Source: an uncultured Candidatus Nemicrothrix sp. (lineage in GTDB: Bacteria; Actinomycetota; Acidimicrobiia; Acidimicrobiales; MedAcidi-G1). From it: a stretch of 64,000 nucleotides of DNA. The translations under genes were made by a program, and so were the position numbers. The notes under the pieces were generated by a model. It did no database searches. It was not told the origin of the DNA and worked only from the letters and a program-made list of their open reading frames with translations. The stretch lies in the NCBI GenBank assembly GCA_913055915.1, contig CAJXKL010000002.1, positions 62,001-126,000 of the forward strand, given 5' to 3'. Positions 8,766 through 19,754 of this stretch are shown in pieces. Within the stretch, counting starts at the first letter, position 1. Each line of letters opens with the position of its first letter.

Positions 8766-9163
8766 TGGCAAAACCGTCAGCAGGGGGCCGTCGTCCCCGT
8801 AAGAAGGAGCGCAAGAACGTCCCGCACGGCGTGGCGCACATCAAGAGTTCCTTCAACAACACGATCATTACCATCACCGACCAGGGTGGCAACACCCTGG
8901 CCTGGGCCACGGCGGGCAACGTGGGTTTCAAGGGCTCCCGCAAGTCGACGCCCTTCGCTGCTCAGATGGCCGCCGAGCAGTGTGCGCGTCAGGCCATGGA
9001 GCACGGGGTCCGCAAGGTCGACGTGGTTGTCAGGGGGCCAGGGTCGGGTCGTGAGACCGCCATCCGAACTATCCAGAGCACGGGCATAGAGGTGACCGGC
9101 ATCAAGGATGTCACCCCGATTCCCCACAACGGTTGCCGCCCCCCCAAGCGGCGGAGGGTCTGA
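8765..9163 (+). CDS. rpsK: 30S ribosomal protein S11
   Basis: Platform protein near the E site, 132 residues. Diagnostic blocks: [34 protein letters not shown], and the C-terminal [20 protein letters not shown]. One-base overlaps with rpsM and rpsD. Confidence 0.98.
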
Positions 9164-12645: not shown

Positions 12646-13038
12646 ATGTCTAAGCCGATCATCCAGACCACAGGCCGTCGCAAGAGATCCGTAGCGCGCG
12701 TGCGCCTGCGTCCCGGGACCGGCACCGTGACGGTCAACGGCCGTCCTGTTGTCGACTACTTCCCATCTGAGAGCCACCGCCTCGTGTTCATGGAGCCCCT
12801 TCGGGTCACAGCCACGGAGGGCACATACGACATCGACGCGACCCTCCATGGTGGTGGTGTTAGCGGCCAGGCTGGAGCCCTTCGCCTTGGCATTGCCAGG
12901 GCTCTCGAGGCTCTCGAGTCCGAGAGGCGTCCTGCGCTCAAGGAGGCCGGGTTTCTTACCCGCGATGATCGCAAGAAGGAGTCCAAGAAGTACGGCCTCA
13001 AGAAGGCCCGTAAGGCTCCGCAGTACAGCAAGCGCTGA
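12646..13038 (+). CDS. rpsI: 30S ribosomal protein S9
   Basis: Head protein whose C-terminal tail touches the P-site tRNA; 130 residues. [14 protein letters not shown], the [19 protein letters not shown] block and the ending [12 protein letters not shown] are diagnostic, with the terminal Lys-Arg intact. Confidence 0.98.
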
Positions 13039-13081: not shown

Positions 13082-14422
13082 ATGGACCTCAGCTTCGGGA
13101 CCGACGGGGTCCGCGGACGAATAGGCACCGAACTCGACGCTGCCTCGGTACGAGGCCTGGGTTTGGCAGCGGCTGGCCACCTGGGCTCAGCCAGGGTGGT
13201 TGTCGGACACGATTCACGCGAGTCCGGTCCCGACCTGTTGTATGCCCTCGCCGACGGCTTCGTAGCCGGTGGGGTCGAGGTGGTGTCCATCGGCATGGCG
13301 CCGACTCCGGCCGTGGCATGTCTGGCCGCCCTGGACTCGGTTGCCGGGGCAATGGTCTCGGCTTCGCACAACCCCTGGTGGGACAACGGTGTGAAGTTGT
13401 TTGCTGCCGGTGGGCGCAAGCTGGGTGACGCAACCCAGGCAGCGATCCAGGAGGTCTGGCATCTGCGCCCCCGGCTCGACCCGACCGGCAACTTCTCCGT
13501 TGTCGACGTCGACGACGGTCGGTGGGCCGACTCCGTTGTGAGCTCAGTTGCCCCCGGGGTGCTTACCGGGATGCGTCTTGTCGTTGACTGCGCAAACGGT
13601 GCCACGTCTTTGAGCGCCGGCGGGGTTCTGTCGAAGCTCGGCGCACAGGTGACCGTCATCCACGATTCTCCCGACGGCCGGAACATCAACGAGGGGTGCG
13701 GATCCACGAGGCCCGAAGGCCTGCAGGATGCAGTGGTGTCGTTGGGGGCCGATGCGGGCCTTGCGTTCGATGGAGACGGTGACCGTGTAGTCGTCGTGGC
13801 CGCTGATGGTTCTCTGCTGGACGGCGACCACCTGTTGGCCATCTGCGCGGTGGACCGCCTCGGTAGGGGGTTGTTGACCGGGTCGACCGTCGTCGTCACC
13901 GTCATGGCCAACCTGGGCCTTCGTCGTGGCCTCGCTGATCACGGAATCATGGTCCATGAGACCGATGTCGGGGACCGCAACGTTCTGGAGGCGCTCGACA
14001 ACGGCGGCTGGTCCCTGGGTGGTGAGCAGTCCGGCCACATTGTGTTCCCCGAGTTCGCCACTACAGGTGACGGCCTGCTGACCGGGGTGCAGGTTCTTGA
14101 TGCAGTGGTGAGGGCGGGCCGCACGATCGGAGACATGGCCGCCGAGTTGGTCAGCCGTGCGCCACAGGTCCTCGAGAGCATCCCGGTGTCGGGGAGCGGT
14201 GCTGCCGTTGTGGCCGGTGTCGCAGACCTGATCCACGAGGAGGCGGATCGCCTCGGCTCGAATGGGCGTGTGCTGGTGAGACCCTCAGGGACCGAGCCCG
14301 TGGTGAGGGTGATGGTCGAGGCAGTTGATGCCGGTACAGCCGAGGCCGTGGCAGAGAGGCTCTGTCTGGCCGTAAGGAATGCTGACGCGGGCACTGAACC
14401 GGGGGCCGCGACGGGCAGTTGA
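13082..14422 (+). CDS. glmM: Phosphoglucosamine mutase
   Basis: Converts glucosamine-6-phosphate to glucosamine-1-phosphate for UDP-GlcNAc. 446 residues, typical. Domain I begins FGTDGVRG; the phosphorylated catalytic Ser95 lies in SASHNP; the metal loop is FDGDGDR; the sugar-binding GGEQSGH and the phosphate-binding RPSGTEP are all present. It is next to glmS, its pathway partner. Confidence 0.97.
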   Translation: MDLSFGTDGVRGRIGTELDAASVRGLGLAAAGHLGSARVVVGHDSRESGPDLLYALADGFVAGGVEVVSIGMAPTPAVACLAALDSVAGAMVSASHNPWWDNGVKLFAAGGRKLGDATQAAIQEVWHLRPRLDPTGNFSVVDVDDGRWADSVVSSVAPGVLTGMRLVVDCANGATSLSAGGVLSKLGAQVTVIHDSPDGRNINEGCGSTRPEGLQDAVVSLGADAGLAFDGDGDRVVVVAADGSLLDGDHLLAICAVDRLGRGLLTGSTVVVTVMANLGLRRGLADHGIMVHETDVGDRNVLEALDNGGWSLGGEQSGHIVFPEFATTGDGLLTGVQVLDAVVRAGRTIGDMAAELVSRAPQVLESIPVSGSGAAVVAGVADLIHEEADRLGSNGRVLVRPSGTEPVVRVMVEAVDAGTAEAVAERLCLAVRNADAGTEPGAATGS

Positions 14423-14544: not shown

Positions 14545-17500
14545 ATGTGCGGCATTATCGCGGTTCTCAGGCGGCCCTCGGGTCGGCCGGTTCCGACGGC
14601 TACAGATGTCACAGGTCCCGTTCAACTGGCTCTTGATCTCCTCGGTGGGTTGGTAGCCGCTCCAGACGAAGTCGGCCTGAAGGAGGTGGCCGACCAGCTT
14701 GAACTGGCCGACCGGTTGTTGGGTGGTGTTTCCGGGTTGACGGCAATGGAGGCCGAAGGTTCGCTCATCGGGTCACTTGATCTACTGCTGGAACAGGTTT
14801 CTGAGCACCTCATTCGGATGGAGAAGGTCCTCGAAGGTGCGCGGGCCGACCTCGAGTTGGCCAACGTCGCCCTGGTGAGGGCCAGGGACGCTGCATGGTC
14901 GCTGTGCCACGACCGCATGGGTGCCCATGCCGGCGTGGCTTCGCTGTCGTCACTGCGCCGGCCACCCAGCGAGTCCGGCCGTGCCGTGCTGCTCTCGGTC
15001 CACCAGGCCCTCACCGCCATCGACAGGCTGGAGGTTCGTGGTCGGGATTCGGCGGGCCTCGTCGTAACCGTCTGGGACCACGGCTTCGATGACGTTGACG
15101 TGATGGGCCGTGACGAGGATCCCCTTCTCCGCAGCGGAGCGGTCAGGCCCCTCGCCGGCGGCGGCTTCTCGTTCGTGGTGAAGGCTGCAGCGGAGATCGG
15201 GGAGTTGGGGGACAACACCGCTGCAATGCGAAGGGCTCTCGCCGGTGACACGGTGCTGGCCGGCCTGCTCGTCAGCCCGTCGGTTCGTGGTGCCGTGCTG
15301 GGCCACACCCGCTGGGCCAGCGTCGGCCTCATTTCTGAGGCGAACGCACATCCGCTCGACTCCACCCGGGCCGACGGAGCGGCCGCACCGCTGGTGCTGG
15401 CCGTCCAGAACGGCGATGTCGACAACCATGCGGACCTTGTTGCCTCCGAGGACCTTTCGGTGGCAGCCGAGATCACGACCGACACGAGGGTTGTTTCTGC
15501 GTTGTGTGCAAGGCACCTGACCGCAGGCGAGTCCGAGGACGAGGCCTTCCGACGTACCGTCGCCGCCTTTGAGGGGTCGGTCGCCGTAGCTGCTTCGATG
15601 GGTGCCTCTCCAGATCGCCTCTGGCTGGCCCTACGCGGCAGTGGACAGGCCCTCTACGTAGGCGTTGCCGAAGACGCCTTCATCGTCGCGAGTGAGCCGT
15701 ACGGGGTGGTGGAGCTGACAGATGCCTACCTGCGAATGGAGGGAGGGGCCGTCTCTGATGGTGTCGGCCCGGCGGTCGGCAACGGCCAGATCATCGGGTT
15801 GGACGGTTCGCTTGCCGGTGACCTGGCCGGCATCGACCGACGGTCCTACGACGGCAGGCTGCTCCCAGTGGGAGAGCACGAGTTCGTTAGGGCCGGCATC
15901 ACCACACGTGACATTGACCGCGGCGACAGCCCTCACTATCTGATCAAGGAGATTGGCGAGGCTCCGGCTTCGGTCCGGTCCACCCTGCGGGGCAGGCTCG
16001 TCGATGTCAACGGTACGCCTACGGTGAGGCTCGGAGAACGTGCCCTGGGCGCTGACCTGCGCGCCGACCTGGCTGGGGGCCGGATCCGTCGGGTGACCAT
16101 CATCGGACAGGGAACCGCAGCAGTGGCGGGCGAGGCGGTTGCGCTCTCGGTAGCCGCAGAGTTCGCAGGGTCAGACCTGATCACCGAGGCGAGGACTGCC
16201 ACAGAACTGTCTGGCTCAGGTCTGCGTCGCGACATGTCAGACACCCTGATTGTCGCGATCAGCCAGTCCGGTACGACTACCGACACCAATCGCACCGTTG
16301 ACCTGGTGAGGGCCCGCGGTGCCAGGGTGCTCGCAATAGTGAACCGTAGGAACAGCGACCTGACCGATCGGGCCGACGGCGTGTTCTACACATCCGATGG
16401 TCGTGACGTCGAGATGAGCGTCGCATCCACCAAGGCCTTCTACGCCCAGGTGGTGGCAGGCGTCCTGTTGGCAGCGGCGCTCGCCGATGCCGCCGGCCTC
16501 CCCGGTGCCGATGACCGGGCGGGCCTCCTCGACGGCTTGCGCGAGCTTCCCGAAGCCATGGTCGAGGTGTTGGCGCTACAGGAGCAGATCGGGAATGTGG
16601 CTGACCGGTACGGGCCCGGGCGTCGCCACTGGGCCGTTGTCGGAACTGGTGCGAACCTGATCGCGGCCCGCGAGATCAGGATCAAGCTCTCAGAACTCTG
16701 TTACAAGTCCATCGCCGCTGACGCCACCGAGGACAAGAAGCACATCGACCTGTCGGCTGAGCCGCTGGTGCTTGTCTGTGCCACCGGAATGGTGGGTTCG
16801 ACGGCTGATGACGTGGCCAAGGAGGTTGCCATCTACCGGGCCCACAAGGCCGCGCCGATTGTCGTTACCGACGCCGATCCCGGCCTCGGTAGGTTCCCTG
16901 ACGCCCTCGACGTCGTGACCGTTCCGCGGGTGCACCCGCGTCTGGCATTCGTGCTCTCGACAATGGTCGGGCACCTGTTCGGCTACGAGGCTGCGCGTTC
17001 CATCGACGCCCAGGCGACCCCGCTGCGAGAGGCACATGCCGCCATCGAACGCCTGGCTGCGGCCGGTCTGGCAGCTGATGCATCCACCGGCCCGGTCGAG
17101 GCCCTGCGGTCGCAGTTGAGGCCGCTGGCATCCCGGTTCTTCGACGAGCTCAGGTCTGGCCGCCTGAACGGCCACCTCGAAGCTTCAACGGCTGCCCGCC
17201 TGTCAGCACAGTTCCGTTACGCCACCGGAGACCTGCCACTGGAGTCCTATCAGCTTGAGTTCGGTCCGGTTGGCACCCCGGCGCTGGTACTCGACGACCT
17301 GGCCGGAGCCCTGACGCAGGCCATCGAGGAACTCACCCGACCCATCGACGCCATCAAGCACCAGGCCAAGACGGTCACGGTGGGGATCTCCAGGAGCGAC
17401 GAGATGCTCCTCACCGCCGGCCTTGTCCGCGAGGTCCTCGATGCCGGGGCGCCGCGTGATTCGCTCAGCTACAGGACCCTACGGTTGCTCGCCGACCTGG

Positions 17501-17976
17501 ACGCTGCCGTTGCCCAGGTCGTCGGGTTCACCCGTTACCGGGTCGATGGGTTCGACGGGGACACCCCGACGGTGGCGATCGTCGACAGGGGTGGAATCTC
17601 CACGGGCATTGAGTCACGTTCTGATCGTGATCCTGCACTTCGCGGCACCAAGCACAGCGTGGTCGTGGCACGTGAGGTTCTCGTTACCCGGGGAGCCAGG
17701 GACGGCCGCACGATCGTCCTGGTTCCCGAGGTAAAGGACCGTCAGGCGGTCGGCCTGACCCTGCTTCATGTGGTGCTCCACGAGTACCTGCCTCCTGATG
17801 ACCTGCGTGGTGTGCTCCATGGCTACCGCAACCGGTACGACAAGATCCGCGATGCCGTCTGTGAGACAGAGCCCCACCTGCGCGACGACCGGTTGGCCGA
17901 CCTGCCAGTCGAGGACCTCCTGGTTGATCCCGTGGGAGGGATAGCTGATCGCCTTCGTGCGGAGGGTTCGTCCTGA
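14545..17976 (+). CDS. glmS: GlmS-type glutamine:fructose-6-phosphate aminotransferase, double-length form
   Basis: Expected to make glucosamine-6-phosphate from fructose-6-phosphate and glutamine. The product has 1143 residues against about 610 for ordinary GlmS. Glutaminase parts are recognisable but spread out: nucleophile Cys2 in MCGII, RGRDSAG at 165-171, HTRWAS at 254-259 and QNGDVDNH at 288-295. The hinge HYLIKEIGEAP (464-474) leads to SIS domain 1 with SQSGTT at 573-578 and STKAF; SIS domain 2 follows (about 690-860) and the family lysine tail resembles AKTVTV near 940. Two parts are extra: about 140 mostly helical residues (about 15-155) between Cys2 and RGRDSAG, and about 200 residues after 945. 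Neither is a domain I can name. Lies downstream of glmM. Confidence 0.85.
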   Translation: MCGIIAVLRRPSGRPVPTATDVTGPVQLALDLLGGLVAAPDEVGLKEVADQLELADRLLGGVSGLTAMEAEGSLIGSLDLLLEQVSEHLIRMEKVLEGARADLELANVALVRARDAAWSLCHDRMGAHAGVASLSSLRRPPSESGRAVLLSVHQALTAIDRLEVRGRDSAGLVVTVWDHGFDDVDVMGRDEDPLLRSGAVRPLAGGGFSFVVKAAAEIGELGDNTAAMRRALAGDTVLAGLLVSPSVRGAVLGHTRWASVGLISEANAHPLDSTRADGAAAPLVLAVQNGDVDNHADLVASEDLSVAAEITTDTRVVSALCARHLTAGESEDEAFRRTVAAFEGSVAVAASMGASPDRLWLALRGSGQALYVGVAEDAFIVASEPYGVVELTDAYLRMEGGAVSDGVGPAVGNGQIIGLDGSLAGDLAGIDRRSYDGRLLPVGEHEFVRAGITTRDIDRGDSPHYLIKEIGEAPASVRSTLRGRLVDVNGTPTVRLGERALGADLRADLAGGRIRRVTIIGQGTAAVAGEAVALSVAAEFAGSDLITEARTATELSGSGLRRDMSDTLIVAISQSGTTTDTNRTVDLVRARGARVLAIVNRRNSDLTDRADGVFYTSDGRDVEMSVASTKAFYAQVVAGVLLAAALADAAGLPGADDRAGLLDGLRELPEAMVEVLALQEQIGNVADRYGPGRRHWAVVGTGANLIAAREIRIKLSELCYKSIAADATEDKKHIDLSAEPLVLVCATGMVGSTADDVAKEVAIYRAHKAAPIVVTDADPGLGRFPDALDVVTVPRVHPRLAFVLSTMVGHLFGYEAARSIDAQATPLREAHAAIERLAAAGLAADASTGPVEALRSQLRPLASRFFDELRSGRLNGHLEASTAARLSAQFRYATGDLPLESYQLEFGPVGTPALVLDDLAGALTQAIEELTRPIDAIKHQAKTVTVGISRSDEMLLTAGLVREVLDAGAPRDSLSYRTLRLLADLDAAVAQVVGFTRYRVDGFDGDTPTVAIVDRGGISTGIESRSDRDPALRGTKHSVVVAREVLVTRGARDGRTIVLVPEVKDRQAVGLTLLHVVLHEYLPPDDLRGVLHGYRNRYDKIRDAVCETEPHLRDDRLADLPVEDLLVDPVGGIADRLRAEGSS

Positions 17977-17998
17977 TGCGGGCGGTGGGGGCGCCGCG

Positions 17999-18364
17999 TT
18001 GATTGGTATCGGAACGGACCTGGTCGACATGGGGCGCTTCCGCCGTTCCCTTGAGCGCACCCCCGGCCTGAGGGCACGGTTGTTCAGGCCGGCTGAGCGT
18101 GCCTACGCCGACCTGCGAGCCGATCCGACGGAGAGGTATGCGGTTCGATTTGCGGCCAAGGAGGCGGTGCTCAAGGCACTCGGCCTCGGCCTGGGTGGTG
18201 CCGCGATGTATGACATCGAGGTTGTGCGCGAGCCGTCTGGCAGGCCGGCCCTGCTCCTTCACGGCGGAGCGGCCGAAGCCGCCAGCGCTGCCGGCGTGGA
18301 GCGCTGGCTCCTGACCCTCAGCCACACCGACCTGGTGGCGACGGCCACGGCGGTGGCTCTGTGA
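17999..18364 (+). CDS. acpS: Holo-[acyl-carrier-protein] synthase
   Basis: Transfers 4'-phosphopantetheine from CoA to acyl carrier protein. From TTG 17999 it is 121 residues, normal for AcpS. Motifs: IGIGTDLVD with the metal Asp, and RFAAKEAVLKALG. A GTG at 17957 is in frame but lies inside glmS and has no ribosome-binding site, whereas GGTGGGGG precedes the TTG by about 8 nt. The start choice is reasonable but not certain. Confidence 0.9.
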   Translation: MIGIGTDLVDMGRFRRSLERTPGLRARLFRPAERAYADLRADPTERYAVRFAAKEAVLKALGLGLGGAAMYDIEVVREPSGRPALLLHGGAAEAASAAGVERWLLTLSHTDLVATATAVAL

Positions 18365-18392: not shown

Positions 18393-19754
18393 GTGATTCC
18401 GGTTGTCACCCCGGCTGAGATGGCCGAGATCGATGCGGCTTCCCCGGAGGCGGTAGACGTCCTGGTCGGACGTGCCGGAGCCGCGGTGGCACGGGCCGTA
18501 CTCGAGGAGCTGGGTGGTGGCTACGGCAGGCGGGTGGTGGTGCTCGCCGGCCCGGGTTCCAACGGCGCCGACGGTCGGGTGGCCGCCGAGAGGTTGGAGC
18601 AGCGAGGCGTACGGACCATCGTAGTTGACGCCCTTGACGCACCCGAGCGGCTTCCTCCGGCGGATCTCGTCGTGGATGCGGCATTCGGCACCGGGCTGCG
18701 ACATCCTTTCGAGCCACCTCGAACGTCTTCGCCAGTACTGGCCGTTGACCTGCCCTCTGGTCTTGACGGCCTGACCGGTGTGGCCATGGGTGCTCCGATG
18801 GGCGCTGTACGGACCGTCACGTTCGCTGCCCTCAAGCCGGGCCTGCTGCTCGGTGAAGGGCCCGGCCTGGCTGGGCGGGTCGAGGTGGCCGACATCGGCC
18901 TCGACGTCTCTGGGGCCGGAGCCTTCTTGGTCGAGGACAGCGACATCTCCGGCCTCGTTCCAATGCGGCGACCGGATGCCCACAAGTGGCACAGCGCCTG
19001 CTGGGTGGTAGCCGGATCTCCCGGCATGGAGGGGGCCGCCCACCTGGCGGCCGCCGCGGCCCAGCGGGCTGGTGCCGGTTACGTGCGCCTCTCGGTTCCC
19101 GGTGGCGTTGACGCAGGTACACCTGTCGAGGTGGTCGGGCATCCGGTGGATGTCGGCCTGGCAGAGGTCTCCGGGGATCTGGACAGGTTCGCATCGCTGG
19201 TGGTGGGGCCCGGTCTCGGTACCGACGGTGATACCTGGTCAGGGGTGCGGCGCCTGGTGGCCAGTTCGACCGTCCCGGTCGTTGTCGATGGTGACGCCCT
19301 GAACGCCCTCGTGGGTGGTGACCAGGAGCGTCGGTGGGTGGCACCGGTGGTCCTGACCCCACATGACGGGGAGTACGAGCGCCTGACCGGTAGCCGCCCG
19401 GAACCTGACCGCATCGGAGCCGCCAGGGCCCTGGCCCGGTCGTTCGATGCGGTCGTGCTCCTGAAGGGTCCGACGACGGTCGTGGCGGCACCCGACGGAC
19501 GGGTCCGGCTGGTCACGGCTGGTGACAGCCGTCTGGCCACTGCGGGTACCGGTGACGTCCTGGCGGGCATCTTGGGGGCTTTCGTGGCCCGTGGGGCCGA
19601 CCCGTTGGACGCGGCAGCCGCAGCAGCGCACGTGCACGGCCGGTTGGCGACAGCCTGCCCCGAAACCGGTCTGGTAGCCGGAGACCTGGCCACGCATCTC
19701 GTCGAGGTGCTCGTGGGTCTCAAGGTCGACCCTTTAGAGGGGGCGTCGTTCTGA
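18393..19754 (+). CDS. nnr: Bifunctional NAD(P)H-hydrate epimerase / ADP-dependent dehydratase
   Basis: Repairs hydrated NADH/NADPH. 453 residues. N-terminal YjeF_N epimerase domain (about 1-190) with AGPGSNGADG and VVDAAFGTGL; C-terminal carbohydrate-kinase-like dehydratase domain (about 210-450) with VVGPGLGTD, the HDGEYERL element (commonly HPGE) and the catalytic loop TAGTGDVLAGI. GTG start. Its stop shares bases with the alr ATG. The acpS-nnr-alr order is common in actinobacteria. Confidence 0.95.
   Translation: MIPVVTPAEMAEIDAASPEAVDVLVGRAGAAVARAVLEELGGGYGRRVVVLAGPGSNGADGRVAAERLEQRGVRTIVVDALDAPERLPPADLVVDAAFGTGLRHPFEPPRTSSPVLAVDLPSGLDGLTGVAMGAPMGAVRTVTFAALKPGLLLGEGPGLAGRVEVADIGLDVSGAGAFLVEDSDISGLVPMRRPDAHKWHSACWVVAGSPGMEGAAHLAAAAAQRAGAGYVRLSVPGGVDAGTPVEVVGHPVDVGLAEVSGDLDRFASLVVGPGLGTDGDTWSGVRRLVASSTVPVVVDGDALNALVGGDQERRWVAPVVLTPHDGEYERLTGSRPEPDRIGAARALARSFDAVVLLKGPTTVVAAPDGRVRLVTAGDSRLATAGTGDVLAGILGAFVARGADPLDAAAAAAHVHGRLATACPETGLVAGDLATHLVEVLVGLKVDPLEGASF

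Follow-up and report, generated by a model that had tools for sequence, protein, structure and literature searches.

A double-length GlmS as the probable sole glucosamine-6-phosphate synthase of an uncultured member of the Acidimicrobiia

Results

The long glmS gene and its parts

In most bacteria, GlmS catalyses the committed step to UDP-GlcNAc and generally comprises about 610 amino acids. The stretch of DNA analysed here, termed the window (64,000 nt), contains a glmS gene for a protein of 1143 residues. An ORF scan of the window revealed an ATG start, a protein beginning with MCGIIAV, and zero internal stops, and all GlmS landmarks claimed in a preliminary description of this single frame were recovered in the translation. 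The genes at the locus and the parts of the protein are the following:

12646..13038, + strand: rpsI, conserved upstream neighbour (ORF list, locus comparison)
13082..14422, + strand: glmM, next step of the pathway, conserved upstream neighbour (ORF list, locus comparison)
14545..17976 including the stop codon, + strand: long glmS, 1143 aa (ORF call, translation, profile matches, relatives)
14581..15000, + strand: residues 13-152, extra region 1, a bundle of helices that lengthens the stretch from Cys2 to RGRDSAG by about 138 aa over E. coli GlmS (alignment, AlphaFold2)
15073..15279, + strand: within residues 177-245, extra region 2, between RGRDSAG and HTRW, about 44 aa above E. coli GlmS (alignment)
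15289..15705, + strand: residues 249-387, glutaminase (GATase_6) core with HTRWAS, QNGDVDNH, and TDT (Pfam, alignment)
15922..17007, + strand: residues 460-821, isomerase core, two SIS domains with SQSGTT, K714, E717, and H733 (Pfam, alignment, fold match)
17008..17355, + strand: residues 822-937, extra region 3, helical, from the second SIS domain to the lysine tail, about 110 aa above E. coli GlmS (alignment, AlphaFold2)
17356..17394, + strand: residues 938-950, catalytic tail KHQAKTVTVGISR, K942 corresponding to E. coli K603 (alignment)
17395..17973, + strand: residues 951-1143, extra region 4, C-terminal alpha/beta domain with a GAF/PAS-like predicted fold, surplus of about 196 aa (predicted fold)
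17957..18364, + strand: acpS, conserved downstream neighbour, the listed frame sharing 20 bases with the 3' end of glmS (ORF list, locus comparison)
18393..19754, + strand: nnr (NAD(P)HX repair), conserved downstream neighbour (ORF list, locus comparison)

The anatomy was derived from an alignment of the long GlmS with ten standard GlmS proteins of the same order and E. coli GlmS, the sequence of which shows one difference to PDB 4amv. The long protein has 534 surplus residues compared to E. coli GlmS, located chiefly at four sites; the remainder are small insertions, mostly in or after the glutaminase domain. Between Cys2 and Arg165 of RGRDSAG, 163 residues are counted versus 25 in E. coli, and 201 residues follow the tail lysine K942 versus five behind K603. 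Both enlargements had been noticed before and are seen in this alignment. The two unassigned regions of the preliminary description, the first and the last, are real, but the two further ones of about 44 and 110 aa had been missed, giving four main regions in all. As a consequence of the last region, the catalytic tail, which is chain-terminal in standard GlmS, is internal in the long form. Its mean identity among relatives is 96%.

Relatives of the long GlmS sharing 50 to 93% identity are spread over the family, order, and class. Comparison to six of them yielded dN/dS values of 0.05 to 0.35 in each extra region, indicating purifying selection. Region 1 is the fastest-evolving part by this measure; it is also the least conserved, with a mean identity of 30%, yet G64, W118, D123, and R124 are invariant. 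For the C-terminal domain, values of 0.05 to 0.15 were obtained, a constraint similar to that of the glutaminase core. That the length results from a misassembly or frameshift in this genome has a negligible probability: equal length and layout are found in dozens of independent assemblies, complete chromosomes included, selection is purifying along the whole protein, and no point supporting an artefact was found. The earlier judgement by eye, that frameshift and misassembly are not involved, agrees with the occurrence of the same protein in many genomes and with the selection acting on all extra regions.

Relationship to GlmS and catalytic residues

Pfam searches detected GATase_6 at residues 249-384 and two SIS stretches. 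Among NCBIfam models, PRK00331.1 matched with an E value of 9e-69 and TIGR01135 with 213.6 bits (E 4.9e-63), below its curated cut-off of 418 bits; the scores of both models amount to about half to 60% of the curated cut-offs. Long-form relatives score between 198 and 236 bits with TIGR01135. Evidently, this model was not built to take in the long subfamily.

Most of the aligned catalytic residues are invariant across 61 full-length relatives. In the glutaminase domain these are C2, R256, N289, G290, and D313, corresponding to the nucleophilic Cys, Arg73, Asn98, Gly99, and Asp123 of E. coli, and in the isomerase domain K714, E717, H733, and K942, corresponding to Lys485, Glu488, His504, and Lys603. 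Altogether, equivalents of E. coli Cys1, Arg26, Arg73, Trp74, Asn98, Gly99, Asp123, Thr302, Ser347, Gln348, Ser349, Thr352, Glu481, Lys485, Glu488, His504, and Lys603 are kept. Ser303 of the E. coli enzyme, a phosphate contact, is replaced by Ala.

A full-length AlphaFold2 prediction based on 61 sequences reached a pLDDT of 88 and a pTM of 0.80. Both human GFAT-1 and E. coli GlmS are matched by the predicted core, with Z values of about 40 to 41 over about 600 residues. Region 1 is modelled as a helix bundle (19-162) and region 3 as helical (825-939), while residues 941-949 of the tail are among the parts predicted with the lowest certainty. The full-length fold search returned GlmS/SIS relatives only, so that regions 1 to 3 were barely probed for their fold.

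Operon context

Locus comparison with sister genomes revealed that long and standard glmS genes share one operon slot, rpsI-glmM-[glmS]-acpS-nnr. Between positions 9000 and 25000 of the window, neither a glmS ribozyme nor another Rfam element was matched at gathering scores. The missing ribozyme fits control on the protein without proving it. MurA is present in the genome; therefore, UDP-GlcNAc is needed.

GlmU (TIGR01173) was not recognisable in the whole genome of the window (G000) and the family members G007, G009, G012, and G014, in which MurA is present. The best TIGR01173 match there, with 64 bits, is an RmlA-like thymidylyltransferase adjoining RmlC (L174). Elsewhere, GlmU is matched with E values of the order of 1e-70 to 1e-110 in other families of the order, under the cut-off, and of about 1e-150 in other orders of the class. 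A nucleotidyltransferase of 300 aa (L182:1414-2316, + strand) might be a candidate for a GlmU substitute. The idea that the long GlmS goes along with a loss of GlmU was abandoned because many genomes with the long form have GlmU.

Distribution of long and standard GlmS

In the whole genome, which is 93.7% complete, the long glmS was the one SIS-domain gene found, and a search for a second glmS of standard length was likewise without result. Within the family of the window, 46 of 48 genomes contain the long form, in full length or in pieces, most of them over the full length; the two genomes without a match are 69 to 72% complete. The long form was also detected in many genomes of the same order. 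The named relatives are Acidimicrobiia, one of them the cultured Aquihabitans sp. G128, whose chromosome is complete.

For a survey of the class, a match to the C-terminal domain was taken to define the long form and a best TIGR01135 E value below 1e-80 the standard form. Among 296 genomes of Acidimicrobiia, 113 harbor the long form and 162 the standard form (159 of these above the cut-off), while none contains both; if the two were independent, 62 genomes with both would be expected, a figure that is not corrected for relatedness. The remaining 21 genomes, many of them incomplete, were assigned to neither form. Matches to the C-terminal domain were nearly always located in frames of more than 1100 aa unless the frame was cut short. 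Hits in frames of 768 and 782 aa (E about 1e-3) belong to methylmalonyl-CoA mutase genes and were rejected as chance matches. In one genome of the order, G082, listed as 98% complete, neither GlmS form was detectable; its lone TIGR01135 match is the glutaminase part of a 500-aa frame, probably PurF.

Several records titled Bifidobacterium breve, Dehalococcoidia, Acidobacteria, and Thermoanaerobacterales (L144, L158, L091, L124, L127, L131) show a long GlmS in typical Acidimicrobiia operons, and these names look misassigned. Beyond the Acidimicrobiia, the long form occurs sporadically among other Actinomycetota. G408, a genome of 6.5 Mb from outside the class with 5% contamination, holds a long and a standard GlmS. 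The long glmS lies apart from the glmM operon in G408 (L192) and in G521 (L190), in the latter beside map and rtcB-like genes; horizontal transfer or contamination is possible for these arrangements. No homologue of the C-terminal domain was found on plasmids.

Descent of the long form

Core identity amounts to 65% within the long forms and to 54% within the order's standard forms, but to only 29% between the two. Compared to E. coli GlmS, identity is 42% for the standard forms of the order and 26% for the long GlmS. In a tree, all long forms are split from all standard forms by a branch with a length of 3.6 substitutions per site. These identities and the long branch indicate that the long form is an old separate subfamily and no recent elongation of a local glmS. 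Intermediates between the forms were not seen in the genome surveys. The long form could have reached the glmS slot either by in-place replacement or by long divergence.

The low identity between the cores, the long branch, and the exchange of Ser303 for Ala could also be read as signs of an enzyme aminating another keto sugar phosphate, with GlcN-6-P obtained from elsewhere. We consider this very unlikely, since the gene occupies the same slot beside glmM as standard glmS, is never accompanied by standard GlmS in the class, and belongs to a genome that has MurA and no second SIS gene. Another sugar or keto substrate, as offered in the preliminary description, is thus disfavoured by locus, exclusivity, and residues. 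Its preferred role in GlcN-6-P synthesis, for which the glmM neighbour had been cited, appears strongly supported on sequence grounds by the sole SIS gene, the shared slot, the exclusion of standard GlmS in the class, and the kept residues.

The extra regions

No sequence match to any of the four extra regions was obtained in Pfam or PDB, consistent with the earlier labelling of the first and the last as unassigned. PDB profile matches of regions 1 and 3 to designed helices, M-protein, and vimentin coils were rejected as reflecting composition only. Pfam matches of single members were also discarded, with E values of 0.007 or worse and common to at most two members.

Folded alone, the C-terminal region was predicted with a pLDDT of 91.7 and a pTM of 0.86 in the order b1-b2-helices-b3-b4-b5. 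This predicted order is compatible with that of GAF/PAS-type domains, in which helices lie between the second and the third strand of an antiparallel sheet of five. Neither a Pfam GAF/PAS match common to the members nor a PDB profile match was detected; domains of this type often escape sequence searches. The best structural match is to residues 174-361 of 7jsr, the M. smegmatis large glutamate dehydrogenase (Z 9.3 over 162 residues), followed by GAF domains (Z 8.0 to 8.6 over about 80 residues), with Foldseek E values above 1e-3 throughout. The structure 7jsr has a resolution of 6.3 Å and its N-terminal part was modelled ab initio; ACT/PAS and GAF are described as sensor-type modules (PMC8175468). 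With moderate confidence, the C-terminal region may be assigned a GAF/PAS-like fold, and a shared fold alone does not establish function. Among the 61 relatives, the charged residues D1014, R1025, K1036, D1053, R1055, R1097, and E1107 of this domain are fixed.

Fixed charged residues in a domain that has no known family to judge it by could point to a second catalytic activity, there or in another extra region, and hence to a bifunctional protein. We regard this as extremely improbable: the predicted C-terminal fold resembles sensor modules, and although GAF folds also occur in free methionine sulfoxide reductases, the residues fixed in the C-terminal domain include no catalytic cysteine.

Discussion

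The analyses suggest that the long GlmS is probably the only glucosamine-6-phosphate synthase of the organism and represents a deep, double-length subfamily replacing the standard enzyme; sensing by its C-terminal domain is less certain. Points that speak against this view are the TIGR01135 score of about half the cut-off, the exchange of Ser303 for Ala, and the contaminated genome G408 with both forms; for the fold of the C-terminal domain, they are the Foldseek values and the low resolution of 7jsr. By analogy to the GlmS family, Cys2 would free ammonia from glutamine, and this ammonia would be channelled to the fructose-6-phosphate that the SIS domains bind together with K942 and H733. The product, GlcN-6-P, would feed GlmM and the cell wall.

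That the extra parts could be regulatory, as proposed before, is plausible for the C-terminal region through its predicted GAF/PAS-like fold; a regulatory role may be taken as the leading explanation. Specifically, and tentatively, proteins of the subfamily could contain a built-in sensor for a small molecule just behind the catalytic lysine tail, with ligand binding determining how the sugar site closes. The K942 tail leads straight into the C-terminal domain at one end and is held by region 3 at the other, so that a movement of these parts could set sugar-site closure. The C-terminal domain would then sense a small molecule and alter closure of the tail, the helical regions would carry the signal or mediate assembly, and hexosamine flux would be set on the protein itself.

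The main rival also has a sole GlmS, but with structural extra regions serving the oligomeric state or docking of a partner such as GlmM, without any sensing. In its favour, helices make up two of the four regions, and region 1 evolves fast with few fixed residues, as is often the case in scaffolds. Fixed charged residues and a sensor-like fold in the C-terminal domain argue against it, but weakly, since an interface fits too. We judge a purely structural role rather unlikely.

With bacterial GlmS (TIGR01135; E. coli 1jxa, 2j6h, 4amv), the long form shares the Ntn glutaminase, two SIS domains, equivalents of His504 and Lys603, the glmM neighbour, and the sole copy; it differs from these proteins of about 610 aa by its four extra regions, internal tail, and sub-cut-off score. 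Human GFAT-1 (6r4e and others), to which the core is closest in the full-length structure comparison (Z about 41), also exceeds bacterial GlmS in length, but has about 680 aa and is 23% identical to the long GlmS. In GFAT, feedback by UDP-GlcNAc operates without a C-terminal domain past the tail. L-GDH180 of M. smegmatis (7jsr) is likewise a metabolic enzyme enlarged by ACT/PAS modules, which are N-terminal there, whereas its catalytic core is unrelated and the match to the C-terminal domain shows 10% identity and is not visible at the sequence level. GAF domains (5w10, 3trc, 3ci6, and the fRMsr 3mmh) resemble the C-terminal domain in the order of strands and helices along about 80 residues, but cover less than half of it, with 9 to 20% identity and without a Pfam GAF/PAS match.

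The open-access literature searched contained nothing relevant on a long GlmS or on GlmS in Acidimicrobiia. GlmS enzymes as such are known, but nothing in that literature describes the double-length subfamily, the exchange of the standard enzyme for it in much of the Acidimicrobiia, or the C-terminal domain. One class is divided between a GlmS of about 610 aa and a deeply diverged form of double length in the same slot, and any model of GlmS closure over the substrate is constrained by the internal position of the catalytic tail. Hexosamine flux is known to be controlled by a ribozyme, sRNA, GlmR, and the mechanisms of GFAT; the sensor reading, if true, would add a control distinct from these routes. 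Should the C-terminal domain be a sensor, the supply of cell-wall precursors in these abundant Actinomycetota, which are hard to grow, would be under a control at the protein level that can be tested directly.
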